Shown here piece after piece: positions 9,064-43,900 of a DNA stretch of 64,000 bases. Each line of letters opens with the position of its first letter. Positions within the stretch are counted from its first letter, which is position 1. Below the pieces are notes generated by a model, which did no database searches, was not told where the DNA came from, and worked only from the letters and a program-made list of their open reading frames with translations. The stretch covers positions 404,956 to 468,955 of the forward strand of contig JAANDG010000044.1 of NCBI GenBank assembly GCA_036852015.1, read 5' to 3'. Position numbers and translations under genes: made by a program. The stretch comes from Pelodera strongyloides. Taxonomy: Eukaryota; Nematoda; Chromadorea; Rhabditida; Rhabditidae.

Positions 9064-12000
9064 TTATGCCCATTGCTGTTTGAGTGCGTGGTTCTTGGCC
9101 AATCGTCGTGCCACAAACGATCCGGCGATTAATCCGACGAGCACAAGACTGATCAGAACGTGGTCAAAGTCGTCTTTGAGAATATCGAAAGTTCCCGAGG
9201 GCGTCAACCTAGTGTAGAAGATGTCCAAACCGTAGGCCAGCATCAATGAGGTCGATTCCAGGCCCGACGGTCTGAAAATAATACATTTGCGGATGATAAA
9301 GTTTGGATTTGAACGTAACTGGGGAACTTGACTAAAAAGGCTAATTATCTAATTGAATGCAAATATGGATTTAGGACCTAGCAGATCGCAGATGGCACGT
9401 TGGGTCAGAGAATAACGACAAACTAGACATACATAGAATTTGCTGGCAATTAACGCCAAAATAAAAAACGAAGGTATGCAAAATCACATACGCAGTCTTG
9501 ATTCCTCTCACATTATGGACTGTCTGGTTGTAGTTGACCATCTCCTCGGACGGGATCGGGATCTCGGGCATATAAGGGATATATCCACCTTCCTCTCTCA
9601 TCTCGGCAGTCAACTCGAGGGGACGCATCGCATCCAACATACGACGGTTCACCTAAAATGCAGTTTAAATGCACTTTCCATTAAAATCACGTTACGGTAC
9701 CCCTATCTAACCTGACGATACGTGCAAATACACTGCTTACAATGCTTACTAGTAAATCATGTTCCGGCCAACCACAAAAAAGGACAAGATATTAATAAAC
9801 TATGCTTACTCCAAAGATGTTTCCAAACGGAAGAGCAATCATCAACGATCTATGGGAGACTCCTTGTTCTGAAAATAATCGTTTGGTTGGCTTTGAAGTC
9901 AAAACAGTCCAATGTTACATATATGTATAACCCGTTATTTTGGAACAAATCCATATGCCTTGACTGAAAATGTATAACTGGAGGTAACAACCAATCATAA
10001 AGAGCTCGGCTAACTGGTAGCTGCCTATAACAGGGTACACGTTACCGTATCCCAAGAGATCGTAAAGACTGTATACCTGTCTCCGAAACATCCATATACT
10101 GAATTCCCTGGCTGAAAATGAAGGCACTTTGCATAACGACCACAGGTTTCTTCGTAGCTGCCAACGAGTCAAACTTCTCCTTATCGGTTAACTCTTCTCC
10201 TTCGTACAACTCGAGAATTCCGATTTCGGTACGACGTCCCTTCTCCGCCCAATAGGAATACTAAAACAGGAAATAGTGTTAACTAAAAGTCCCACAGGTT
10301 GTTACACTGACGTTTCTTGGACTATTTGTACTTTGTACGAGAGACCGAAAGATTATTATCGTATGGTAAGTTGGTAAGTACCAATCATTGTCAATAAGTT
10401 CGAGTTTTTCCATCATCATGTTCCATAAGCCATTAGGATAAACCCAAACTATGTTAGCGCTCTCGCGCTAACAAAGGATATACCCGCAACCCGCTCAACA
10501 TACTAACACAAGTTCCTGACAATCATGATGGAACATTCACAAAAGTTCACTCTAAAAACTTTTGCAACTCTAGTCAAGTTAATTCTACGTACAATTTTAA
10601 GTTACTATTTTCTTTTCCTCAGCTGTGATCCCAATGCTCAAGTGTGCAAAACGACGAAACCGAAACATAATACCCTCTTCCCTTACAAAAGCGCACATGT
10701 TGTAACATAAAGAGCGAATGGGGATTGACGGAATAGACAGACAGAAAGCAGCATGTCTCCCCTACATTCTTTAACAGCAAACATATGCTGGACTGAGAAA
10801 ATGTGAAAAAGAATCTGCTCAAAGTGGGGGGGGGGGCCTGCGATAATTACATTTTCAATAAATATAGCTATAAGGGCATGTACAGAAAATGGAACACCTT
10901 ATCTCGTATGCAACTGTGAATAAGGATAATGTCTAAAATTCTCCAATACTGTAAATCAATTAAGCAAAATTACGCAATACAAATACGGTAATCTTTTTGA
11001 TACAGCAAGTTTCAAACGACAAAAAAAAAATTAAATGTAATAACAATTATAACCAACCGCAACCCAGTTCTCGCAGTGGACCAAATGCACCGGGCTAGTG
11101 GCCTTGTTAAGACGAGCTGTATGGACCATTTGTCCGGAGACGGCGTCTAAACAAAAGGCAAGGTTGGTTGAACATAATCAATATTCATAGAAAGGTTGAA
11201 CCTTCGAGCTTATTACGACTCCCAGTAAGACAGATTGGACAGATGTAAACCAAGTCTTTACGTCAACGTTTCACCTTTCGACATCTTCAGGTCAAAGGAT
11301 TAAATACGTCAAACTTGGGTTTAAACTAAATAATCAATATTTTTGTTCGTTTTTATTATCACAAAAAAATCTTACCAATCATGTGGATAACCACTGTATG
11401 TGCCTTATTGTCGACAACGGCCACGGACACAAGGTTCGGGTTGACATACTTATACATGACAGAACGGTCAATCATCACTCTTCCTTGTGAATGGGTTCTC
11501 TCTGAAATTTTCGGTTAGTCGAACATCTTTTTCTTTGTAAACAGCTCTATAACTTCGTCAATCACAAAACACGAGAAAACAGTTCTTATTCGCGCACTGT
11601 GGCGTATCCATATCTAGCACTAATCAATAGAGCAAGGTCGTAAAAAAATCCCGAAAATTCCAAAGTATCACTCACGTGTTGCGGGTTTTCCCTTCACTGC
11701 GACAACCTTGGAATCCGCAGTCATCTGCAGACTTCCAGTCCACATTTCCACCAGTTTCTTATTCACCAAGTCGACCCTGAATTCGAAAGCTACCGTAACC
11801 GAAATTCGGGCGGGAAAAACGTTCAACCCATGATTTCTGACTACGTATACGAGTGAAACCTTTGTTATCTTCTAGTTACCAGTACTAGTTATACATATTT
11901 ATAACAAACTATGATACTTACCTGAATCCCTTAAGCTCTCCCGTCTCCCCTTCAAGATCCATAATGTGAACGGGAAGTGCATGGCTGACGGACGAAGGAG

Positions 12001-15000
12001 ACAATTCAGGGAAGAGAGAAACCTGGAATTCATAGTTGGAAGTTGGAATACGCATGAAACTCTATAATTTGCTGCACCATGCTCAGGGACAAGGAAATGT
12101 TTGCTGAATTGTTCCAGTTTTATCACCGAAATAGAACAAACATCCTAAAGGTGACTTAGGACCAAATAGTCCTCTAATTTCCACACCTAGTTGACGTCAC
12201 CTCCCTATAAGTTACGTGTCATCCTCGCCATTGAGTAAACATAAACAGAAAGGATCTTGCTAATTATAAAGTCAGGCAACACCAATATAAATAAATATTT
12301 CCCGTGCATTTGACATGACGAGTGCACTAACAAATATTCGACAGGCGAATAACAACAAATAAACGTTTTATTTTTAAACTAATATGAGGCTAATTATTAT
12401 TTACATAAAAGACTATGATTCGCCTTCAGAATACGTGGGTTAAAAATGGAACAAGGTAAATAAAAATTTATACATGCGAGGATACGTACATATAATGTAG
12501 ATTATGGTACGGTACGAATGGAACTATGGAACTACAATTTCGTGAATTATGGGGCTTCCAAGTATGCGGGCAAATTTACCGTATTTTATGACTTCGCGAG
12601 ACCCAGGTATTAATTTCTCATGTCAAATATTCAATTCAGGGAAAATACGGTAAATTTGTCTATACTTGGAAGGGAACGCACAGTTGTTTTTGGCATACAT
12701 GGAAACCCCATTACAATACCCTATTTAGAATGATTGAGAATCGCTTCTCCCCCGCCACCTATCCGCCCACCGGTAGTTGATAGTACAATGACGGTTTATA
12801 GTCATGAGAGGGAATGAAGATAAGATATTGACCACCGGCTACCGCCCACCGGTAGTTGATAGTACAATGACGGTTTATAGTCATGAGCGGGAACGAAAAT
12901 ATTGTTCTCGCTTACAATACGAATAAACCATTTATGGAGTTGGAGCTTTTCCATCTCGAAAAAGTTCCGAGGTTCATATCCATCTGGAGTATATCATGAA
13001 CGCGTCATGAACGCATCATGAACGTACACAACAAAACAGAGAGTATCTTATCATTCCACCGGTATAAGAGCCTGGAACCGAGTTGAAGAAGCAGGCATTC
13101 AGCAACAACCAAACAATGCACTGCGGCATTCATTCCCTACTCGTCTGTACCCTTCTAATGGGGATTCTCGCTACTCCCTTTCCAAATGCTTCTTTTCGTT
13201 CTGCAAGTTATGGAAGTCATGAAGAGCCTTATTCGGATGATGACAATGCTTGTAGATTACCCGACCAATCGTTTCTGGAAGGTGTATCCGAAAGTTCACG
13301 AGACGCATTCGAACAAATTCAAAATGATCTGTCGCTCACTCGAGAACAGTTTTTCAAAAAGGCGAAAGAGTGGGCAAGCAAGGAATCCAAAGCAGTACAG
13401 GTAATGCGCATCACAATCGCTAAAGTTTCTAATAAACAAGATAATTACTTCACGACTGGTATCATGGCTCTTTTTGACTTTCATGGCTCTCTATTTTAGG
13501 AGAAGCTTCAAAAATACTTGGATGCTTTTAACGAGAAACTCAAGGAATACGCCCAAGGATGTGACGACCTGCAAAAAGCAGTGGTTGAGGTTCTTACAAG
13601 TGTAAAGCACCTCTCTTTAGACGCAACTCTTACAGGACTTGAGTTGCAAGCGGAGGTGGAAAAAATCTTCAAGAGAACGCCGAAAAGGCTCGAAAAAATT
13701 GTCGTAAAGCTGCTCGGAGCAATTCAGTGCAAACCACTGCCATCTACTACAGCCACTACGATTTGAAGTTTTACAACTGAATTCTAAATAAACTATTTGA
13801 TTTTGATATATGTATATGTGATTAAGATGTGATATATGTATATGTGATTAAGATGTGATATATGTATATGTGATTAAAGTTTCATCCTCTGATGCACACC
13901 TATACAAAACAAAGTGCCCACAAAGTGTAAATTCACTACGTATGTGTGTCTCATAATGTCAAACATCAAACTACTGGCAAAGCAGCTTTAAAGGGATAGG
14001 TTCATCTCAAATCACCTCTCTTTTTATTGTTTTTATTGATAATAACGCAAGCATCATTCACAATGAAAATTAAATCAATCACAGAACAATACGCCTCGAA
14101 GAAGAAGCTTCCTTTATTGGAAGCTAGTTGATCGGAAGCCAAAATCTAAACTCAAAAACTAATACCTACACTGGCAATTAGCGGGCTAATGGCAAGTAGC
14201 CAAGAGCGAATTAAATGATACTGCACGGGAAATAATGACCTGCCGAGTGTAGTTTGTAACTTGGCTAATTGCCATTAGACCGCTCGATCTGTGTACGGTA
14301 TTAGTTTTTGAGTTTAGATTTTGGCTTCCGATCAACTAGCTTCCAATAAAGGAAGCTTCTTCTGCGAGTCGTATTGTTCTGTGATTGATTTAATTTTCAA
14401 TGTGAACGATATTTGTGCTATTATCAATAAAAACAATAAAAAGAGGGGTGATTTGAGATGAACCTATCCCTTTAAGATAAAACTTCGAAACACTAGATAA
14501 CAAAGAGCGAAACCGAATATATATACTTTTATACTGTAAATAAACCCTTATTCTCAAGGAAATATTGTTCTTCAGCACTTCAGCTAAACTAGTTTTGTTT
14601 CATTTCTTAAAGGGAATGTCAACCCCGGTTTTGCAGGTTAGGCTAAAAAGGCTTATATTTTGTAGGTAAGGAAAGTGAAAACAAAAATAAACAAAAACTT
14701 TTCGATAAAAAGAAAAACAATTTCAAACCCTTCTAAAAAAATGCCTTCACTATGGGATTTCGGTTTTTTGCTCATTTTTTTGGATTCCGAAGCAAAAACG
14801 TCTTTCTAGATGAGTTGCAAAAAAAATATATTTTTTTAATCGCTTTTTGAGAGCTCGATTTTTGAGAGCGCGTGATACAGTAACCAGGAATCTGCGTTGA
14901 CGTTCCCTTTAAAAGAATTTTATAACAAAAGGTCTGTTTCTGATAAGAGGCAGTAAATAATCGACAGATATGCAACTACAAATTGCTGGTTAAATCAGTG

Positions 15001-18000
15001 GCTAGCGTAGTCTTAAGAAACATCGAATAGTAGCAAAATACACGTAAACATCGGTAGCTTCCGGCTTCCGACCAAATACAAATTGAGCATGGTTAAGAGT
15101 TGTGAGCATGGCGAAGAGGCGAAGAGTTGAGACCGTACACAAATTAGACACTGTGCCGATCTTATGTCTCTCTCAAAAAAAAAGTGTTTTACAGGGATAT
15201 TTTTTCTGTGTACAGAAGCAGAAGAACCAAGAACCTTGCCGACTTAAAGCGAAATGGCGCCCGGTTTTTGAAACGCATCTCATACTCCAAACAGATGCAT
15301 TCCTATGTATTTATGCAAAGTGGGGTCGAATTGGGGTAGATTTTTAGTATAATAATGCTCATTTGCATACAATTCATGGAATTTAGTTGTTTCAAAAACC
15401 CGCCGTGAAGAATTCCCAATGGCATTCAGACTCTTCAGGCTTCAGGGCCATAACTTGATCCTTGAGCCCACCGGCCAGCTAACCGACGAATCACCATCCA
15501 GATTAGCATATTACATAATTTTCTTGGCTAACAGTCACATCAACTTGCAGGCACGTCGGAAAACCCCGAGGATACAATACAACACGAACCACCTAGAGGA
15601 TGAAAATGGAGGAGGAACCACGGCTATCAAGTGCTGTATTTGAAAATAAGGACTACGACAGGGAGATGCTGCAAGATAATGGGCAAGATGAAATTACAGA
15701 AATTCCACATCCTCTCTCAAAGAGGAACGGTTTATGTTTTAGATTCGTAAACCTGCTCTCCCTGTCGGACCGTCGGACGAAATGGTAAAGGGAACGTAAT
15801 CGTATTTGCCATTAATTTCTTACTTTTAACGTGACGTCAATGCTATTTTTATATATGATAGTCGTTACTGTATGTCTTAGTGCCACTGAAACAAACAATA
15901 ACGACTATTACCAAAAAAACATCGTTCATTTGAATTCCTCTATCAAATAGTACTATGATTTCTGAACAGTTGATTTGGCTTTGGCTTTGCCTTAAACGAA
16001 GACAAACTTGCAATAAACTCGTCACTGTGTAAACATATAAAGAAAGGGTCTCTTCCATTTCGTTGTCAGACTCCTTATAACAAATAAACATTTCCTGTCC
16101 TTTGGACACGTCCTATATTTAATAATACGGCACTAACAAATATTTACAGAAGCTATTTTAGAACAAAGGGGATGAATCACCTGCACAATATGAGATAACG
16201 GATTGTGAAACAAAGGAAACCCCAAAATTTACATAAGTGCTGGTGGATATACATGACCTGATCGCAGATTCCACAAAACTTCCTTAAGTTAACATAGATA
16301 GTTGAGAAAAATTAACAAGTAAAACCAAAAAGAGCTATCTCGTTTCAGTCGTTTCGCTCGCTAGCTGCTAGCTCCGACTAACAAGTTCCCGTTGTACGTA
16401 CAAGACCGACTCTAGGAACTAGAGCAACCGTTAACCCTGGTGAATTTTCGTAGAGAGGCGGTAATTAAAGGGCGTTCGAGGGTTCGAGTTTTGCTTTTGC
16501 ATCATATGCATACTGTTTCGAAAGATGCGCAACCAACAATTTACTACAGAAGGTCACAAAGTGCGTCAGTAACCCCAAGACGCACGACAAAGCACAGCCA
16601 CCCAGACAGCGGTTACCCCGTTACGTCAAAACAGTTAACGACACCTGCTGACCGGCGGACCAGCTGATAAGAAAGAGTGTAGGCGCTCCTATCACCGCTT
16701 TCTCCCGGTATAAAAGCCTGGAACCGAATTGAAGAAACAGGCATCCAGCAACAACCAACAATGCAGTGTGTCATTCATTCCCTAATCTTCTGTACCCTTC
16801 TAATGGGCATTTTGGCTGCTCCTTCTCGAAAGAGTTCTGAAAGCTCAGGTAGTCATGAAGATCCCCATCCAACGCCAAAGAACAGCTGTGCACCCCCGAA
16901 ACCAACTTTTTTGAAGGATGTGTCTGGCAGATCAAGGGGAGCATTTGAGAAGATCCTGCACGACAAATCCCTTTCGAGAGAAGAGTTCAACAAGGAGGCC
17001 GAAGAGTGGGCTAGCAAGGAATCCGAAGTAGTACAGGTAATCAGTGACCCATTTCCACAATACTCATTCCCGATTCTCGTAGAGGGTAGTATTATTTCAA
17101 GCTATTATTGTTTTGATTTTCATGACCCTAAAGACATTAATGCCTAGATATAAACCATTCACTTTAGGGCAAAATCCACCAATATTTGGACGCAATCAAC
17201 GAGAAAGTCGAGGAATACTCTCAAGGAATCAAAGACGTCCAACAATCGGTGGCGGAGGTCATTGCAAGTGTTGAGGAAGTGTTCTCTGATGCAACTATTC
17301 CAATGAAGGAGATGGAGAAGAGAGTGAAGAAGATCTTCAAGAAAGCACCGAAAAAGATCGGCGAACTTGCCAAGAAAATGTTGGAAGCAGTTCACTGCAA
17401 TCCACTCCCTTGGACCACGGTTGCACCTTCAACTGAGGCTCCCGTGACTGAAGCTCCCGAGACAGATGCTCCTCAAACAGAAGCTCCCGAGACAGATGCT
17501 CCTCAAACAGAAGCACCTGAGACTCAAGCTCCCGAAACTGAAGCTCCTCAGACGGATGCTCTCCAGACAGAAGCCCCCGAGACTGAACCTCCTCAGACTG
17601 ATGCTCCTCAGACTGATGCTCCTCAGACTGATGCTCCTCAGACAGAAGCACCTGAGACTCAAGCTCCCGAGACCGGTGCGCCCCAGACCCATGCTCCTGA
17701 AACTGACGCACCACCGAGTGAAGCACCTGAGACTCAAGCTCCCGATACCGATGCTCCCGAAACTGCTGAGCCAAAGACAGAAGCACCCGAGACAGATGCG
17801 CCTCAGACCGACGTTCCAAATCCAACAGTCGCGTAGGCATTCTACTGACTATCCATGAGAAAACATGGGCTTCGTTTTTATTCAAATTTGTTTGTACATA
17901 TGAAAATCTATACCTGAATAAACAATTTAAAGTACCTATGGGAAGAATACGCCTCCACAACCTGCTGAAATAGCAAAACAGAACAAAGGAGTAAGCTGAT

Positions 18001-21000
18001 ATGTAAACTAACACCCGGTAGCAATAGTCGTATCAGGACGTAGGAGTACGAAGAAAAGAGGAGGTCCGATAAGAGGCATGAAACTGACAGATAAGCAGCG
18101 CCGGAAACAAACTATTCCAAAACAATAAATGTAAATATGTAGTCGTCAAAACGATGTTACATTTGCTGAAACAAAAAAAAAACTAAGTTCTTTTTTTATG
18201 AACAGCATTAATAGCAAGGACTACACAAAAAATATATAGGAACAAGGCCGATTAACAGAAAACCGATATTCCTTTATAAGCACCACATAGTTATTTAACG
18301 AATGTGTTTATGTATCGCTCACAAAGAATTCCTCTCACGCAGATAGTAGAAATCATTCATAAGTGTTTTACAGACAATACTTTGCACGGTGCATAGATGC
18401 TTCCCATTGTTCGAGAAAGAGCAATTCATAACAACAAAAGCCAACCGATCCAATTATTCCAACGACTTTTACAATGTGCCGATTATTTGCATACACCCAT
18501 ATAAAGCTGAGAGCGTCTCCAATTTCACATCAGCAGTTTTCGCTCGACATCCGAACTCAATGAAGTATTCAATTTGCGTGTTGATAATCGCAACATGGAT
18601 GATCTTCAACGATGCCGCGCCTGCCTTCGCTCATACAGATCTGGATGAATCTATCGGAGTTGATCCGGCGGACTGCCCAGCCGACGACGATAATCTTATG
18701 GAGACAACAACCGAACAGATTACAATATTCCCTAACCAGACAACCGATCAGACGCAAGGTGCGACTCGGCAGACGACGGCCGGACAGACAGAAATAGCCT
18801 CCAATCAAACAACAGCGCCAACAAATACTCAGGTGACTACAGAAGGGAATACCAATGTACCAACCACTCGAACCGCCACCGGTACGCCAAAAACGGAAAC
18901 TGAACCGTGTGGGGGAGACGGCGAGTCCGCGGGACTAACGGACGGATCCTCGAAGCCAACAGCTGTTCCTACAGGGCAGACTGGTCCGCAAACCGCCCAA
19001 ACTGGAAAGCCATCCGAAAAGACTAACGCCCCCACCGGGCAGACATTACAGCCAACAGACAAGACCAAGACTGACCTAACCACCGCGAAGATCGATGCAA
19101 CAAAGCAGACAGCACCAACAGACAAAACGAATGCCCCCACCGGGCAGACAGTACAGCCAACAGACAAGACTGACCTCCCCACCACAAATATCGTTCCAAC
19201 AAAGCAGACAGCACAGCCAACAGGCAAGTCCAACCCACCCACCTGGCAGACAGCACAGCCAACGGACAAGACTGACCTCCCCACCACAAATATCGATTCA
19301 ACAAAGCAGACAGCACAGCCAACAGGCAAGTCCAACCCACCCACCTGGCAGACAGCACATCCAACAGACAAGACTGACCTCCCCACCACAAATATCGATT
19401 CAACAAAGCAGACAGCACAGCCAACAGGCAAGTCCAACGCACCCACCGGGCAGACAGTACAGCCAACAGACAAGACTGACGTCCCCACCACAAATATCGA
19501 TCCAACAAAGCAGACTGAGCAAACCTCTGACAACACCAAACTACCTACTGCATTGACCACAGAAGTGCCAACTCAGCAGACACAGCCATCGTCTGCGTCC
19601 GATGACACCAGTACAACACCATCTCCTCACGGTGAAAGTTGCGACGAACCAGATGCATTATTTGTGGATAAAGTTTCTCCGGAATCGAGGAAAAAATTCA
19701 ACCGTCTACTGAGAGACAAATCACTTTCAAGACAACAGCTGGACGATGCTGCAAGAGAATGGGCAAGCGGGGAAAGTGCTGAAATACAGGTACAGAATTA
19801 CAGAATGGTTTAGTCTTTGGTTATTCACAAACCTGCCGAATGAAAAGGTATAAGATGTTAAATGAATAAACCAAGCAATTTGAAATTTATATAAAAACTT
19901 GTAATTTAGGAAGAGGTCGAACAATGGATCAAGGAAGCCGAGAGAAAGGTTAACGCCCATCAAGAAGGTATTAACAAAGTCCAGGAACAAATCTCACAAT
20001 TGGTGGCAAAGGTGCAAGATCTTCACAAAGACAAAGAACATTCACAGAAAGAGAAGGACAGAAGAATCAAGGAGACACTCGGGATGGCACCACACAGTAT
20101 TGCACAAGTAGTGAAGAAGATTCTCGACGCAGTCGTGTGTTAGAATAAAGTTGTCTCTGTCTGTGTTCTTATTTCAAATTTCAAGTTACGTCATGAAAAG
20201 GATTGCACAACTTGACATGTTAGCACCTAAAGAAAACAGAAACACAGGAAACAAAGCTGATTGAGCTGCGAATTCACCAAACCAAAATCGACCACAAAAT
20301 AAACTACTAGGTACAATAAATAAAACAAAGCGGCCACATTGAGATATGTCATGCCAATATGCCAAATCAGTACAATTTACTACTGGATTTGATAGCAAAC
20401 AGCTGAGGCAACTAACCTTGAGATCTTTTCCAATGACAATGACAGAGTGGAGGTGGTTGTCCCCGCAGAATGGCAACAGATCCACCCTTCTGATTGAGTC
20501 GACTTCCAAACGTTGCACAATCTTTCCATTAATCGGGTTGAAGATGACCAAACGACCTTGTCCAGACACCTAAAAAAAACAATCAGTTAAAGTTACTCAG
20601 TGACTGGAAACAAATAACATTTAGGATTGCTGGACTACTAGCCCCTATAACCCACGAATCAATGAATGAACCGCTTGTGTTGCTGTAGTATACAACTGTG
20701 CTCATTAATTACTACCCCAAGCCCCAGGCTTAGGGGTGGCACCCTGCAGACCCTGCAACATATATAAATAACTCACCGGATCTCTGTACGCGACGACTGA
20801 CTGTGCATCGAGATTGAAAAAGGCGGTCGTTCGTTGCACCAAAATTGGGATCTGTAAATAATAAGTCTGACATTGTTGTGCGTCACGATTAGGTACATAA
20901 GATTGGCACAAAAAAATCTTGCCACTTTCCGGGCCATTTAATACGGACAAGTATTGCATAACATTAGTCAAATGAGCGCATTAATTAACATAATAAATCA

Positions 21001-24000
21001 AATTGTATAGTTAAATCTATAAACCATCAACCCAAAACACCCAGCCACCCACCTTTTCCTCCCCGGTTACTGTAACGAGACCGGCTACGTGCTCTCCGAG
21101 GTACATTCTCCATACAATCGATCCATCCGAATTGTCGATTCCGAATACGGTACCATCCAGTGAAGTGGCAACCATCAACTTGCGGAGGTTGAACACATCA
21201 CGCTCCAGGGGCTGGCCTCTCAGAGAACTAAAAAGAATGAAAGAATAAGAAGAACAGATTTTTTTGTTGAGTTCGGTAGGCTAGGTTGCACACATCAAAA
21301 ATATCGCGATATTCCCACGACCTAGATGATTCATTAAGTCTCATACGAAACTCTGTTACCTTGTAATGACATTTGCTCTTTCCATATATTATTTGTAACT
21401 TTAAATATTAATAGTTTATTAGCACCACAAAAGTAGCTAGACCTCCTGATTGCGTCTAGCCTGTGAATGTTTATCTCTCTATTTTGTTTTTAAATCATTT
21501 TGTACACTCCATGGAATAAAGAATTAATATATCACGAGGTAAAAAAGGTAAACAAAATTATTGCTGCAACCATTTCCACAATGAGTGAGTCAGTATTATA
21601 CAAATGCCTCATGTAAAAAAAATAAAATAAACAACAAATCAAACCTCGAGCTCTTGGCCGACGATCGAACTGCTTCCACGAGCTCAGAGAATGAAGACGT
21701 ACGCAACTGGATCAAGAGACCAACCTAAACACAATATCTGATAATCTGATCAAGGACTCAAAGAGACAAGCACATGTTATGACGTAATTTCTACTTTTGC
21801 TACTTCGTGGAATAGGTTAAACGTGCCACACGTCGCGTAGGGCAGCGTGGAGAGAATCATTGAAGAATCTCGTTTCGTTGCAAATTTCTCTTCACAGCAT
21901 ATCTCAAGTTCATCAAAAATATCCCTACTTTCCCAAAACACAACCAAATAACGTACATCGAGAATAGACTTCAACGTCGTGGTTATCCATCTCTTCAGTT
22001 GCTCAGCCTGGGAGAGAACACGACGCACAAACGACGAGAAAACGTTGCCTAAAACACAACGTCCTTGAATGCAAAAATAAACCAAATATACCTAAATTTG
22101 AATTTAATCCAAATATAAAATACTGACACAAATGATTAGGAAAATCATGCTCCTACAGAAGGAAACCAAAAATAAAGCACAAAACAAAATACAGGATAGG
22201 TGCCTAAGCAAACATTCTCCCGTCTCATATTCCGATAAATCTCCGAATAAATAATAAATAAACTACAAATCAACCGACCTTCCTCGTCACTGAATTCGGT
22301 TTCAATGGCAGCCTGGGATTCACTGAGCGGCAGGTCAAGCATCTCCACGGAGCTGATCCGGGCAAGACTTTCCTCTCTAAGAAAAAGTGTTACAGTTAGT
22401 TTCCACATTCCACGAGAATAGATAGAAGAATCAAGCACAGGACCTGTGCAAAAGGAATACAACACAGAGAATCTACGAGTCTCATTGAGCCCGGAAGAGT
22501 CGAGATCCAAATAACAACATAAAAAATATAAAGGTCCGTTTAATGATTCGGAACCAAAATTTAATAAACTGAATACCTGCTCCAGTCAACGTTTGCTGTT
22601 GCCCGTGAAGGATCAATGATAACGTGTTCGATTAGACAATCGGCTCCTAAACACACATAAATAAAGAACCAAAAAGGGCGATATGTAAACGCTAATATAA
22701 TAACTCGTATAAAAGACAATTTAGAGATTTAGACACAAAATGAAAAAAAAATACGGTTCAAATATCGACAGCACAACCACGCACTGATTTACAATATTCG
22801 GCTGGCGTACTGTACAAAATTAATACGTAGCATTTCTAAAAGCTAGCCCGAGTTTTTTAATAACAATTCCGATACATACGCTGTATCAGGGGTACAGGTT
22901 GGTGCGTGAGAACACGCACGAACCTTGGCCACCTCCAGCAGCAATTCGAAATTTATATAATAGACCGAAAGATGGTGTTTTAACAAAACGGTCTATCACT
23001 AAGTAAGCTAAAGAAACCTCAAACCACCTCCATTTAAGCACGGAATTTATACCCTCAATTCAGGGCGGACAAAATCGAATGACCGAGCAAACAATAAAGT
23101 TGAAGCTGTGAAGAAAAATTGTTGCAACTTACTAACTGAAAGCGCTTCCCATTCAGTTCCACGTGCAGAAACATGCAATTCTTTGTGGGGAGCAAGTCCA
23201 GAACCACTGTTCAGATCGATCTATAAAACAAAGAAATTATATACAAAGTGGACGTCGGAATTGAATACGATGTTTACAAATGGAGCACGTATATACTCTT
23301 TAAAAGGGTTAGTAATAATTAGGAAACTTCGGTAGTGTTAACGACAAATAGTTGCATACAAAAACCGAAACATAGTTGCATACACAAACCAAAACGCACT
23401 ATCAATATAGTAGATAATGTATACATTTATATCTATAACAGATAATAAACAACAGATATAAAATCAACATAAAACAACCGACCCTGAAAGCCTCTTTTCC
23501 GTCCTTCAAGTTGTAAACGATTCCTTTGTGAGCAGCGGAGAGAACAACAACGTACTTCGAATCAGTTTTTCCGTCTACTTCTGCTAGCGCGTCTGATGCA
23601 TAAGGCAACGAGAGGACCTAAGAATAATAACAAAGTTAACTGTTAACTGAATTCTTTGCAGAGTACTGGGCATAAAATGTATAAAATCAAGCCGATTGGC
23701 TCCCATCCTTTGAAGACATGATTTCATAAGTTCATACATTAATTATTACAACTGATACTTCGCAAAGAAAAGTAAGGCTTGAATAACGTAACCCACGAAA
23801 AGTAGTACCGTTTTGAAGTTGTCCGTCATATCAAAAATGACCGTTTCGCTTGAAGTTCTCACTCCAACAAGACCTTCCGAAGCGAGGGGCACAATCTACA
23901 ATGATAATTGGTCTACAATGATAATCTACAATCTACAAAACACAATCTACAACTTATAAGGCATGATAACCATTTACACATACAACCAACATAGGATGTA

Positions 24001-26461
24001 TACAGACATAAGCACATTTCCGTCAATAAGATGACAAGTGTACCCAAATCGTACATTAGCTAGCAATGTAAACAACAAATATGTGAAACAAAAATAAAAT
24101 ATGAATAAATGCCTACCTGTCGAATGTGTCCTTTCGTAGTCGTAACTTCCACCTTCATGTCAGGTCCATCAGCCAAAATGTCCACATAATAAAGTGTGGA
24201 TCCGTCGAAGCCAACAGCGTAACGTCCAGCAAGAACAATTCTACAAATGTCAAGAATACTTAAATTGTATGTCTAAGTACTACACTTATAACAGATCGGT
24301 AGATTCCAATTGGTTCAATTGAGCTGAGCTAGACCACAAATAGACAAAATGCTTAGTACTACTACAAAGTAAGAGCTACTAAAGTACTTAATAAACAAAG
24401 AAATAATGTGAACTGACTGAAGAACCAACACGCCGTGAACGTGAACCGAAAAAAATGAACATAAATATATTAAAATAAATTATACCTGTCCTTATTAAAC
24501 AAAGAAACATCCAAGATTCTGTTGAGAACTTGTACTCCCTTCTCATCGACCCATTTGATGTGCATCTACAATACAAATGCAAAAAAAAAATCATTTCAAA
24601 CCTTAAATAAATATGGAAAGATATTTTGCCCCAAAAAATTTAACCCAGACCAACGAATTCACTTCAACTAACGATAATAGCGAAATAAGTATAGTTGCGA
24701 AGCATATTCTTTGTTAATAAAAGATAACCAAAACATAAAAACAATGTAATTAAAAATATACAGAATGAATAATGAATATTATCCAAGCCAACAATAATTA
24801 CCTGTTCCTTGGACTTCGATCCGCCAACGAGCGCCACTCCGCCATCATGTGGTAACGCGGCCACCCAATCACTGCAAATTCAAGGTGAAATTACAAATTG
24901 CCGAAATCCAAAATAGGTACAAATATAGATCAAATTCAAATCTCATATTACAATGGTCGTTAAATCAACAGCAAGACTGTGTATACACAAAAAAGGCACC
25001 AGAAGCACATCTCAAAACATGAACGGGACAAGTAATTCACCAAAGACCTAAATCAGAAAAAGTAAATTCCATTGAACGCACCTATTTTCAAGTTCGTGAT
25101 CCCATTTTCTCTGTCCATCGTCAATTCCAATTGCGGTCGCCCTGTTGTTGGCCACAGCAACGCACACTTTGCCAGAAATTGTCACCGCAGTTTTGCTAAA
25201 AAAAAAATTACATGAATTGTAATGCTACTTCAGCGATTTAATGCCACGCTAACATAAGTGCTGTATTTAGTGGCCAGAAATGCAGTATCATGCAGAAAAT
25301 GAATAATCGACATGTTTCACTCAAATATCAAACTGGAAATCAGAGGGTTTACTACGTAATTTCTGCCTAGTGACTTTACGAACACTTCACAGCTAGACAA
25401 AAAAAGGTTCTCCGAGACGATAATGAAATGGGAAACTCACTGAATGCTGGGGGCTCCTCCAAGATGATATTGTTGCTTCAAAGTTCCGTCCTTTTTCGTC
25501 CAAATACGAACAACACGACCGGCGTCAGCCACAGAGCAAATCACTGAAGAAAATACATTATCATGAACAACAGACTAGTTTCCTCGTGGTAAAAAGGACA
25601 AGGCCCGGCCAAATACGATAAAAAATATACTGAAATTGAAGATCTAATGCAAACCGTCACAAGATAGCATTTGTGCGGTGCATCTCACGAGCAAAAATGT
25701 GAAAACAATATCTAGAAATAGAGAAACAAACCATTCTTGTGCAAAGCGAATGGAACGTATCCAGGATGAGTAGAGGCTTCCAAAACTCGTCTCCACGCTG
25801 AAAATAATAATTCAGCCGCGTTCATTCCATAACTGCGAAACACATCTATTCAAGGTAGCAAGTACAATCAGACCAACCAACAATGTATTAAACAACAGTA
25901 TTATAATAATATAACATTGGCTAACTTACCAATTTCTCCAGTGTTCAAAGAAAGGGCGGCCACCACATTCTCTGTAGTTGACACATAGTATCGTTCAGTC
26001 TTTCCGGTCCGATCGGCTACCACTTGAGAGGGACATCCAACGAACTGCTTTCTCCTGAACAAGACGTTGCGTTACTATACACAATTGCTCAGGAAATAAA
26101 ATAAAGGAATAGAGTGAATTATCCAATACTGCAAAATGGGTAACTGGTTTCTACAATCAAAAAAAGATTAACAATAAGATAAAACGACCAGCCATGGAAC
26201 CTTATGAAAATATGAGACACAGGCTTATCACAGTAGCGTGACATATCATAAAATTGAATACCGGGTTATAATTTTAATGGATACAATGAACAAAACATGG
26301 AAAAACATACTGGTTCGTCAACATCTGTGTTCAGCACTACAACTCTACAAGATAATAAATAAAACAAAGAAAAGAACCAACCAGTCAGACTTTCCAATCT
26401 GGTCTTCAAATAAGGCGAACGTCTGCGCGATTAGCAACAGAAAGGGTAGTAGAACCCTCAT
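9064..26461 (-). CDS. emc-1: ER membrane protein complex subunit 1 (EMC1)
   Basis: EMC1 is the large lumenal and membrane subunit of the EMC, which inserts tail-anchored and multipass proteins into the ER membrane. I traced 26 exons with consistent phases (947 residues): 26382-26461, 25930-26054, 25732-25797, 25441-25543, 25082-25195, 24802-24871, 24486-24565, 24117-24240, 23809-23895, 23483-23617, 23133-23220, 22577-22646, 22279-22376, 21957-22048, 21645-21724, 21053-21227, 20777-20851, 20417-20569, 11922-12022, 11676-11776, 11376-11501, 11058-11146, 10077-10260, 9810-9868, 9492-9652, 9064-9271. A signal peptide ([16 protein letters not shown]) is followed by [10 protein letters not shown], the conserved EMC1 start. 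A beta-propeller region, SREESLA, HSQGRVM and NYNQTV follow, then the C-terminal DUF1620 region and a final membrane helix ending KQQWA. An acceptor 20 bases before the ATG (exon from 26481) suggests trans-splicing. Intron 18 is 8.4 kb and contains three other genes. Confidence 0.95.
12555..12672. repeat. Short inverted repeat
   Basis: The left arm (TTCCAAGTATG then CAAATTTACCGTATTTT) is mirrored by AAAATACGGTAAATTTG then TATACTTGGAA at the right. The element is about 118 bp, non-coding, and lies between an EMC1 exon and the first nested gene. Confidence 0.75.
12763..12891 (+). repeat. Tandem duplication upstream of the first DUF148 gene
   Basis: The block beginning CCGCCCACCGGTAGTTGATA is repeated at 12842, 79 bases later, with nearly identical sequence (GTACAATGACGGTTTATAG in both). 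It lies 220-350 bases upstream of the first DUF148 start and could be a promoter-proximal duplication. Confidence 0.8.
13047..13070 (+). promoter_or_regulatory. GATA site and TATA box of first DUF148 gene
   Basis: CTTATCA (13047-13053, reverse complement TGATAAG) is the kind of site bound by nematode intestinal GATA factors. TATAAGAG follows at 13063-13070, about 46 bases before the ATG. The stretch from the TATA to the ATG is nearly identical to that of the second gene at 16709-16761. Function is inferred. Confidence 0.55.
13116..13766 (+). CDS. Secreted DUF148 (SXP/RAL-2-like) protein 1
   Basis: Two exons, 13116-13400 and 13500-13766, encode 183 residues. The start was chosen at MHCGIHSLL rather than the upstream in-frame ATG at 13083 because the second gene starts at the matching place. 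A signal peptide (about residues 1-20) is followed by an acidic linker and a DUF148 domain: [17 protein letters not shown], then LTREQF and [11 protein letters not shown] before the intron, and a long amphipathic helical part after it, ending with a Cys near the C-terminus (QCKPLP). The family is nematode-specific, often secreted and immunogenic in parasites; its molecular role is poorly known. The intron follows a Gln codon in phase 0, as in the two relatives. AATAAA lies at 13787. The gene lies inside an EMC1 intron on the opposite strand. Confidence 0.88.
13804..13878 (+). repeat. Tandem repeat, three copies of about 25 bp
   Basis: The unit GATATATGTATATGTGATTA plus AGATGT occurs three times directly after the polyadenylation signal of the first DUF148 gene. 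Confidence 0.9.
13988..14475. mobile_element. 488 bp foldback element flanked by TTAA
   Basis: The left end TTAA-AGGGATAGGTTCATCTC is mirrored at the right end by GAGATGAACCTATCCCT-TTAA. The arms extend far inward: the tract CCAAAATCTAAACTCAAAAA near 14140 is matched by its complement near 14310. The TTAA duplication and AGGG start place it with the other piggyBac-like MITEs in the window. Confidence 0.85.
14607..14912. mobile_element. TTAA MITE family 2, copy a
   Basis: The left end is TTAA-AGGGAATGTCAACCCCGG and the right end GTTGACGTTCCCT-TTAA. The same family occurs at 42468-42819, with the same GTTTTGCA tract next to the end. There is no coding capacity. Confidence 0.8.
15244..15412. 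mobile_element. TTAA MITE family 1, diverged copy
   Basis: It begins TTAA-AGCGAAATGGCGCCCGG and TTTTTGAAACGCATC, and ends near 15412 with GTTTCAAAAACCCGCC. The interior has diverged and the right TTAA is lost. Confidence 0.65.
15413..16660. other. Spacer between nested DUF148 genes 1 and 2
   Basis: I see no gene. Open frames at 15419-15643 and 15600-15788 show no family, splice-site support or codon pattern like the neighbours. It is part of the EMC1 intron. Confidence 0.5.
16665..16716 (+). promoter_or_regulatory. GATA site and TATA box of second DUF148 gene
   Basis: TGATAAG lies at 16665-16671 and TATAAAAG at 16709-16716, followed by the same GCCTGGAACCGA block as in the first gene and the ATG at 16761. 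The very short 5' leader begins about 25-30 bases before the ATG if transcription starts at the usual distance. Confidence 0.6.
16761..17836 (+). CDS. Secreted DUF148 protein 2 with C-terminal mucin-like tail
   Basis: Exons 16761-17036 and 17168-17836 encode 314 residues. The signal peptide ([20 protein letters not shown]) is nearly the same as in gene 1. The DUF148 domain runs from about [18 protein letters not shown] through [15 protein letters not shown], across the phase-0 intron, to [11 protein letters not shown] at about residue 170. The remaining 135 or so residues are an acidic Thr/Pro/Glu repeat with a five-residue period ([15 protein letters not shown]). Its many threonines suggest O-glycosylation; this is inference. 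AATAAA lies at 17917. The DNA of the tail is a 15 bp-period minisatellite and probably varies in length between strains. The gene lies inside EMC1 intron 18, antisense to EMC1. Confidence 0.9.
17428..17833 (+). repeat. Coding 15 bp minisatellite (APxTx repeats)
   Basis: Degenerate tandem 15-base units (for example GCTCCTCAGACTGAT, perfectly repeated three times near 17590-17640) encode the Thr/Pro/Glu tail of DUF148 protein 2. Confidence 0.9.
17923..18499. other. Spacer between DUF148 genes 2 and 3
   Basis: Intronic DNA of EMC1 with no gene visible. GATAAG motifs occur at about 18068 and 18089, some 400 bases upstream of the next TATA box; they could be regulatory but such short motifs are common by chance. 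Confidence 0.4.
18500..18506 (+). promoter_or_regulatory. TATA box of third DUF148 gene
   Basis: TATAAAG lies 60 bases before the ATG at 18560. The flanking sequence is unlike the promoters of genes 1 and 2. Confidence 0.45.
18560..20143 (+). CDS. Secreted DUF148 protein 3 with N-terminal mucin-like region
   Basis: Exons 18560-19789 and 19910-20143 encode 487 residues. The start [16 protein letters not shown] gives a good signal peptide; an upstream in-frame ATG at 18389 would bury it, so I prefer 18560. A Thr/Gln/Pro-rich region of roughly 320 residues follows, with about four copies of a 34-residue (102 bp) repeat containing QPTGKSN and [10 protein letters not shown]. The DUF148 domain is C-terminal: [36 protein letters not shown], phase-0 intron after Gln, then a long helical part ending DAVVC. 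AATAAA (20144-20149) overlaps the stop region. The order mucin-then-DUF148 is the reverse of gene 2. The gene is antisense inside EMC1 intron 18. Confidence 0.88.
19096..19515 (+). repeat. Coding 102 bp tandem repeat
   Basis: About four units starting near GGGCAGACAGTACAGCCAAC, each encoding the pattern [27 protein letters not shown]. Neighbouring units are nearly identical at the base level, which indicates recent unequal exchange. Confidence 0.9.
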
Positions 26462-40911: not shown

Positions 40912-43900
40912 TTACATTTCCAACCGTGCCTCGTCGCCCAGATTCATCAGTTCACATCTCGGAGGAGGAGCCACTCGTTCTAAAACAAAACTTTTATTAT
41001 TATCTATAGGTGCTATTAACAAATCCTAATATCGATTATAATTCTAGATTCGTCGCACTTCAAGTAGCCCATAAGTAACCGATGACCAGGAGTAGACAGC
41101 GTAGCGTGGTGGGTGGCGCGCTCTATTCACAGCATTAGGAGAGCATATTTTGTAAGAGGCAGTCTCTGGTCACTGCTTTCTTATTATATTTTTCAACGAG
41201 CATTTTCACGTTATATTAAAACGTTGCACTAAGTAACCCTTCAACCTACCGTCGGATGAAAAGCGTACTCTCTTACGCGGACGAGGAGCCCTCTGTTGGT
41301 TTTGGACCCCCTGGGTGGCAGGACCGCGATTACTAAGAGTGGGCTTTCTGGAACGATGTAACATAGATGAAAACATCAGACCGATTAGAGTCCAGCCATG
41401 CTACAACTGAAACCAAAATCTCTTACAAACTACACAGGTGTACGGTGTACCTAAAAATAACCAAAATCAATGTAGTAATTACACTACCCTGCTTTGAATA
41501 AATTAACAATGTTAACAGAAGACAGAAGACACAACTAGTTCAGTAGTTCATTTTCATAGCCTTATTAATGAAAATATGCATACAAGTCTTTGTTAGTTTC
41601 CATGTCCCGGCTATGATCAGACGAAGAAAGCATCATGAAATCGAGGTCAAAGGCAAGTTCACTGACTTCCATTCGTCGCCGTTTCATGCAGTCAAATTCA
41701 TCAAGAGATGAGGTAGCGGTTCTGAAACATGGATCTATATAAACTGGTGCGTAAAATACCGAAAATCCCAGCAATTGCCCAGACCAAATTCGGAGGCTAT
41801 TACACATTTAAAATTTGAGTCGAGTGGGAAGTATAGCACATATCAACTGCTAATTGTGCACCAAACATTATTGCAAAAGATTGATAGACACACGTATCAA
41901 ACATTATTGCGCAAGATTTACGCCTTGTTTAAACTGAAATTCTCAGATACTCTAAAGTCCACACTCAAACACTCCAATCACTCTACAAAAGCAAACCCAT
42001 TAACATAAAGCGGCTGGAAACCTGGATGAAGAAACAATAAAGGCATCGGATACCGTAACCACAAAAAATCAAGTTTACTATTACTATACAAAATACCTCT
42101 CAGTGCTACAGGCACGGCGTTTCCTCTTGACTGCCACAGGAAACGGCGAACGAACAAAATTAAAACGCTGCGGCTGCAAATGGTCCATGGAATCGATGGG
42201 GCTGTTGGGTGGGGAGGGAGGAACTGAACAAATTCATTGATTCATCATTCGGAATATGGAACGAAAGCAGAGATTATACTAACCAAATCCGACGTGATTG
42301 CTTAACTGTTATTATATAGGCAACTACCTACGCCTAAATAAAACAGTCTTACAATCGTATGCTTTGCTAGTAAACTAGTTTAGTAGCAGTAGCAGTAGAG
42401 TAGGGTAACCAATAATCACAAATCACTCCTGCCTATGCCTATGAAACACCAAAACGTGATCAAGGCCTTAAAGCGAATGTCAAGCCTGATTCACAGATAT
42501 TCTATAACACGCTGTCACAGCTACCGTAGTTTACACAATTTCTCTCGCGCTCTCCTCTTTTTCTTTGCTGACTTAAACAAATTTCTCTCGCGCCCTCCTC
42601 TTTTTCTTTGCTGTCTAACAGCAAACGGTCCTGCGGCAGAGAATAGTTCTGATTTTGTCCACACGACTCGAATCCCATACTGAAGGAGTTTTTTGGAGGG
42701 GTTTGAAATTGTTTTTCTTCTTACATGAAAGTTTTTGTTTATTTTTATTTTCCTTACCTTCAAAACGCAAGCTTTTTTTTTGAGCCCAACATGCAAAACC
42801 GGCTTGACATTCCCTTTAAATGGGCAGTGCGCAAATAGACGGGATAAGTTTCGCGCGTATATTTATAGATGATGTGTCAGATGGCCTTCGCATTTAAAAA
42901 GTACGGTGTAAGTATAAGTACAAAAAACAGGTACCCGGCGAAGACGAGTGCGTGGACATCGAAGACTCGGAAGTCGCAGGAGCGTCTGTTGAGTATTCTC
43001 CTTCAGAAGTGCAATCACCCGAGGAGGCATCAGATCCGTTGCCCTCAACTTCAGAGTCACTTCCATGCGTTGCGGCATCAGAATCAGATTCCATAGACTG
43101 ATCTCTGGCAAAAGATTGGGAGGATCCCATGAAGTCGGACACAACTTCATCGATATCAGAATGGGAGATCAACGAATGTTCCAAACCCGAATCATCAGGG
43201 TCAGCCTAAAAATAAAAAAAAAAAAAAAATATCACTACTTTATTCACACATACAATCAATCAGATACAACATCAATCAAGTACATGGAACAAGTGCGGAA
43301 GGTTTCTAGCGTCGTGCTTCTTCAATCCGCGGGGGGAATGTGTGGAGGGGAGATTTTTCTTCAGATAATGACGATCCTTGATCTTTCCAATGAGGTTTTG
43401 TGGAGTTATACAGAGTGTTTGACGACGAGACGAAAGGACAAATCCCTCGAAGTCTTCAGGCTAGGCAATGGGGGATTCGCCTCGATTTTCCCCGCCTCGG
43501 TGGCATTGAGTGAGTGTTGTGGCTGGATTCGAACTCGGGTCGGCTGACTGCGAAGCACGGACGTTTCCAATGGGCCACCGAGGCCCTACGAGTTTTTATT
43601 AACTTGACGTGGACTACTTGTATACTGTAACTGTACTGCGTTTGAGTGCAAGAACCACGCAAATTGAATTCAAAACTGTATTCGGTAACTTATGGACAAG
43701 GTACTGCGAATGTTGCGACCTTTTCTTATGTTAGACGAGAAAAGTGATGAGTGAAGAGTGAAGAGGCCAACGCCAAGCCTAGTTATGGGCAGCATCTCCC
43801 CCCCCCCCTACACTGGAACACTGCCTAACGACGGCTGGATGTTACCTGCACTACTTGGCGAGCAGCAGAGGCACTGGGTTGTCTCCAACTGACATCATTA

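Follow-up and report, generated by a model that had tools for sequence, protein, structure and literature searches.

Genes that lie within an intron of another gene are well known in nematodes and insects, and nesting on the opposite strand is common among worms. In Caenorhabditis elegans there are 567 opposite-strand nested pairs of protein genes, involving 5% of the protein genes (PMC12274878), and nested overlaps are reported as the preferred kind of overlap in the worm (PMC2330155). Clusters of nested paralogues have been described in insects, in which the TipE/Teh cluster occupies the last intron of CG18675 and a group of GMC oxidoreductases an intron of Flo-2 (PMC3240667). Here we describe a further example from the nematode Pelodera strongyloides (assembly GCA_036852015.1; 159.9 Mb in 1,171 contigs): three paralogous genes, named G1, G2 and G3, that lie on the other strand within one intron of the gene for endoplasmic reticulum (ER) membrane protein complex subunit 1 (EMC1). 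The stretch analysed (the window, 64 kb) is the final part of contig JAANDG010000044.1 (C44:404956-468955). The three genes belong to the Pfam family PF02520 (ANIS5_cation-bd, formerly DUF148, SXP/RAL-2). Such nesting had been called unusual in a preliminary description of this DNA, a view that the number of opposite-strand pairs in C. elegans does not support (PMC12274878). In our literature searches nothing was found on this locus, and no search paired EMC1 with DUF148.

The closest nematode case is ceh-10 in polq-1, where a protein gene also lies wholly inside an opposite-strand host, the latter encoding a DNA-repair enzyme. It differs in that a single gene is nested, and this is so in six of the six nematodes named by the authors, whereas the EMC1 intron holds three paralogues from a divergent family of secreted type (PMC12274878). 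The insect clusters are similar in that several paralogues share an intron of a conserved gene. They differ in gene family and phylum, and the TipE cluster is of mixed strand; it has been kept in most of the insects examined, with the silk moth and the beetle as exceptions, and the expression of its host and nested genes is poorly correlated (PMC3240667). As for the family, Ani s 5 (SXP/RAL-2, structure 2MAR) has a calmodulin-like fold of six helices and binds Mg2+ (PMC3945735). The likeness of G1-G3 to Ani s 5 lies in the PF02520 match, and a similar fold and Mg2+ binding are hypothetical for them. A profile of the subfamily matched 2mar_A weakly (E 0.017, positions 20-132 of 144), in second place after 8fjg_A 'H12' (E 0.0098) among 27 structures, many of them designed helical chains, and the match is unspecific. 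In contrast to Ani s 5, the genes described here include mucin-like stretches and, on contig C380, modules of three domains.

The host gene was modelled by spliced alignment of the EMC1 protein of Mesorhabditis belari (946 aa) to the minus strand of the window (Table 1). This protein was the top match, with 55.6% identity over 942 aligned residues; for comparison, the EMC1 proteins of M. belari and M. spiculigera are 65.5% identical. The aligned exons run from the ATG at 26461 to 9067, and the stop codon at 9064-9066 was read from the sequence. The alignment exactly reproduced the intron that the preliminary description had placed around three complete two-exon genes on the plus strand. This intron is bordered by AAG|gttagt and ttccag|GTT, and the protein alignment passes the junction free of gaps (IIVVGANKK|FTVFPSL on the M. 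belari side). The remaining 25 of the 26 introns measure 80-797 bp (median 216), and the earlier remark that they are far shorter was correct. The N-terminal half of the model includes some uncertain short exons, such as one of 13 nt at 23398-23386, and this does not affect the long intron.

All three nested genes have open frames, and each has one phase-0 GT-AG intron that follows a CAG (Gln) codon. They lie wholly within the EMC1 intron and on its other strand. A TATA-type box stands 52-60 bp upstream of each ATG, and an AATAAA signal lies 20, 80 and 0 bases past the stop codon of G1, G2 and G3, respectively. PF02520 was the top Pfam match of each gene (28.1, 43.6 and 35.3 bits, in the same order), with most of the domain covered. 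The curated cut-off of 29.3 bits was passed by two of the three, G2 and G3. G1 fell just under it, although its match extends over almost the entire domain (residues 61-163 on 2-102 of 109) and it is 52% identical to G2. The tail of G2 is rich in Thr, Glu, Ala and Pro and is made of an array of 15-nt repeats, and G3 carries ahead of its domain a mucin-like, Thr/Pro-rich stretch of 102-nt repeat units. The N-termini of all three are hydrophobic as judged by eye, and the products are putatively secreted. The earlier description of the three as DUF148 paralogues with open frames and secreted-looking products, running antisense within a single EMC1 intron, is upheld.

Table 1. Features of the EMC1 locus and of the related array on contig C380 (positions are those of the window unless a contig is named)
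Feature	Position	Strand	Details
G1, two-exon PF02520 gene, 183 aa	13116..13766 (13116-13400, 13500-13766)	+	TATAAGAG at 13063, AATAAA at 13787
G2, two-exon PF02520 gene, 314 aa	16761..17836 (16761-17036, 17168-17836)	+	TATAAAAG at 16709, AATAAA at 17917
G3, two-exon PF02520 gene, 487 aa	18560..20143 (18560-19789, 19910-20143)	+	TATAAA at 18500, AATAAA at 20144
G1 core promoter/5' untranslated region	13059..13112	+	50/54 bases identical to G2 counterpart 16705-16758
EMC1 coding region	9064..26461	-	27 exons in spliced-alignment model
Intron 19 of the EMC1 model, containing G1-G3	12023..20416	-	8,394 bp, GT-AG, phase 0
Foldback (MITE-like) element, 488 bp	13988..14475	.	between G1 and G2; inverted repeat, 179-nt arms 95% complementary
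c1 and five tandem modules of three PF02520 domains each	C380:94062-121838		single-domain gene c1 first

In an assembly of so many contigs, an unrelated piece might have been set between the two halves of EMC1. We consider such an artefact extremely unlikely. When the EMC1 protein was searched against the whole assembly, all ten exon matches at E <= 0.001 (a threshold beneath which many of the shorter exons score) fell at C44:414022-431008 and flanked the intron on both sides. No match to either half was found off this contig, and the two follow each other in order and in phase on one strand, joined by canonical splice sites. Because of this, we take EMC1 to be a single-copy gene whose halves are correctly joined. 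Moreover, searches of the assembly with G1, G2 and the G3 domain did not reveal a second set of three genes nearly identical to these.

The same searches gave 13, 32 and 17 matches at E <= 0.001 for G1, G2 and the G3 domain, all of them on C44 and C380. On C380 the relatives form an array, in which the single-domain gene c1, whose exons are 79% and 65% identical to those of G2, is followed by the tandem modules. A module consists of domains A and B, then a long mucin-like repeat rich in Thr and Pro, and finally domain C. In four of the five modules a single open frame spans the second half of A and the first half of B, and in two (the fourth and fifth) one spans B, repeat and C; from these frames and the splice sites, each module is predicted to encode one protein. 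Only the fourth is open throughout. Frames are broken in the repeat of module 1, in B and the repeat of module 2, and in A, the repeat and C of module 3, which may reflect decay or assembly error, and the first exon of module 5 was not found. As the C domain of module 1 is separated from that of module 5 by a synonymous divergence (dS) of only 0.11, the array is young or undergoing homogenisation. A second EMC1 copy beside the array was sought and not found, with no match at E <= 1 in C380:88000-128000 and none elsewhere at E <= 0.001. Scans of the flanks for coding sequence (68.0-94.0 and 122-141.5 kb) showed few clear exons; they yielded long tandem repeats and, at about 74.3-76.9 kb, coding-like frames. 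Long tandem repeats beside the array, at roughly 77-94 kb as judged from their order, have open frames that iterate one short peptide motif many times.

More distant PF02520 genes were found on seven further contigs (20 exon matches), and these bear on the shared intron, which the preliminary description had read as a sign of tandem origin. Eight of the distant loci were fetched, and both exon ends were read in six of them, of which three lie on C618 while C314, C76 and C144 carry one each. Every one of the six has a phase-0 intron at the equivalent position, preceded by Arg (C618, C314), Glu (C76) or Gln (C144). The intron is thus an ancient feature of the family in this genome and no mark of local duplication. 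This corrects an inference, in that a shared intron position does not demonstrate tandem origin where the same intron is found in distant members. In protein searches of a large database for relatives in other species, none of 72 candidates for the G2 domain and none of 162 for region 345-487 of G3 reached E <= 0.01.

How the trio came together was addressed with two trees. The main tree had 13 domain rows, including nine of the 15 domains of the five modules. Left out were domain B of module 2 and domains A and C of module 3, which have broken frames, domain A of module 5, for which a first exon was not found, and also domain B of module 3 and domain C of module 4, although their reading is intact. 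The second tree had three outgroup rows added from PF02520 genes on other contigs. In the main tree G3 grouped with the C domains of the modules (support 100/100), and G1 with G2 (90/88), this pair being joined to c1 (88/88). Both groupings, G3 with domain C of the modules (98/99) and G1 with G2 (83/86), were seen again in the outgroup tree. A single clade of G1, G2 and G3 was rejected by the approximately unbiased (AU) test (p 3.2e-6 with 13 rows), was seen in 0% of 200 bootstrap trees, and was rejected again with the three outgroups. At least two older gene lineages, G1/G2 and G3, thus reside in the EMC1 intron. Of the earlier idea of one founder followed by local duplication, the single founder is not supported, since the trio was rejected as a clade and G3 is nearest to the third domains on C380; only G1 and G2 look like products of local duplication.

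The upstream regions agree with a likely local duplication of these two genes. The alignment of the G1 and G2 promoters scored 88, compared to a maximum of 32 in 500 shuffles. The likeness between G2 and c1 was weaker (35 against 29 in shuffles), and neither G1 and c1 (18 against 30) nor G2 and G3 (17 against 28) exceeded the shuffle scores.

Divergence at nonsynonymous (dN) and synonymous sites was calculated by the Nei-Gojobori method. The values of dN and dS were 0.21 and 1.28 for G2 and c1, 0.33 and 1.23 for G1 and G2, 0.38 and 2.08 for G1 and c1, 0.65 and 1.59 for G3 and G2, and 0.33 and 1.74 for the G3 domain and the C domain of the last module. In all five pairs the third codon position had the highest number of changes (in G2 and c1, there were 49, 27 and 109 at positions 1, 2 and 3). 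Ratios well below 1 with an excess at third positions fit coding genes that have been kept for long. The trio might instead consist of decaying or unexpressed copies, because G1 has a long branch and the DUF148-like stretch at 15651-15687 may be a relic of a decayed copy. We regard this as very unlikely, since the frames are open, the splice sites and the TATA and AATAAA signals are intact, and dN/dS against the nearest relatives is 0.16-0.27 despite dS values above 1.

We consider it probable that the locus is an opposite-strand nested cluster in which a block of two PF02520 lineages resides in the EMC1 intron, and that G1 arose later from G2. The lineages would be a c1-like one (G1, G2) and one like domain C of the modules (G3), and the subfamily was found, within this assembly, only in the EMC1 intron and the C380 array. 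Because both loci show the two lineages in identical order and orientation, the simplest view is that they reached the intron as one block, presumably from C380 to EMC1, and G1 would then have been born there by local duplication of G2. Several points weigh against this view. Synonymous divergences above 1 approach saturation and do not permit dating. G1 and G3 form long branches, and the tree program warns that the placement of long rows is unsure. A pairing of G2 with c1 instead of G1 was not rejected (AU p 0.106), so that the duplication of G1 and G2 leans much on their promoter likeness. With outgroups, c1 leaves G1 and G2 and the tree does not resolve the root within the subfamily, and the direction between the two loci is therefore presumptive. 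In the intron DNA outside the genes, one dispersed repeat is all that aligns to C380:88000-128000, so that gene order and strand are what argues for transfer as one block. Finally, overlapping genes in the worm are about 12 times rarer than in a random model, which suggests selection against such overlaps (PMC2330155).

A single founder would be tenable only if the EMC1 intron was also the source of the C380 array. Under that alternative, one founder entered the intron and diversified into the G1/G2 and G3 lineages, and a block later left and founded the array. The unresolved root would allow this, and so would the order and orientation shared by both loci. However, C380 has four domain lineages (c1, A, B and C) and the EMC1 intron two, and extra births or losses would be needed; the simple version of the idea, in which G1, G2 and G3 form a clade, was rejected by the AU tests. 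We therefore regard an origin in the EMC1 intron as unlikely, though deserving consideration.

G1-G3 look like autonomous transcription units, each with a TATA-type promoter, an intron and a polyadenylation signal, and EMC1 would be spliced across the 8.4-kb intron; transcription of the three genes and this splicing are both predicted from the sequence. Their products would be small secreted helical domains of the SXP/RAL-2 type, accompanied in two of the three by mucin-like stretches rich in Thr and Pro. If EMC1 and the nested genes behave as such pairs do in C. elegans (PMC12274878), they would be active mostly in different cells, and the firing of a nested gene may trigger short EMC1 transcripts. 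Transcriptional interference with EMC1 is possible. The locus offers a clean natural case of a fast-evolving gene cluster living inside a conserved gene. Its most interesting context is a sister array of three-domain modules elsewhere in the genome: compared to the nest, this array amplifies in tandem and fuses domains. A further idea, which we hold to be doubtful, is that the EMC1 intron is an old and stable home of a lineage-restricted secreted family, whereas copies outside have fused into A-B-mucin-C proteins and are still amplifying. Like domains would then be kept as separate genes at one locus and as fused multidomain genes at the other, and the host intron would restrain both copy number and fusion.

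The intron also contains several repeats. The foldback element belongs to what appears to be a recently active family resembling miniature inverted-repeat transposable elements (MITEs); it was found in at least 40 genomic places, this one included, at 97-100% identity, 40 of 504 candidates having been scored. A second repeat family is present in the EMC1 intron (14607-14759), elsewhere in the window (42658-42821) and within the array (C380:104528-104695). The stretch of 37 nt at 15651-15687 resembles the end of G3 exon 1 (81%), with a gapped local score of 44 compared to a best score of 28 in 300 shuffles, and may be what is left of a fourth DUF148 copy. Upstream of G1, at 12763-12901, there are two direct copies of a 60-nt sequence, which are 95% identical and start 79 nt apart.

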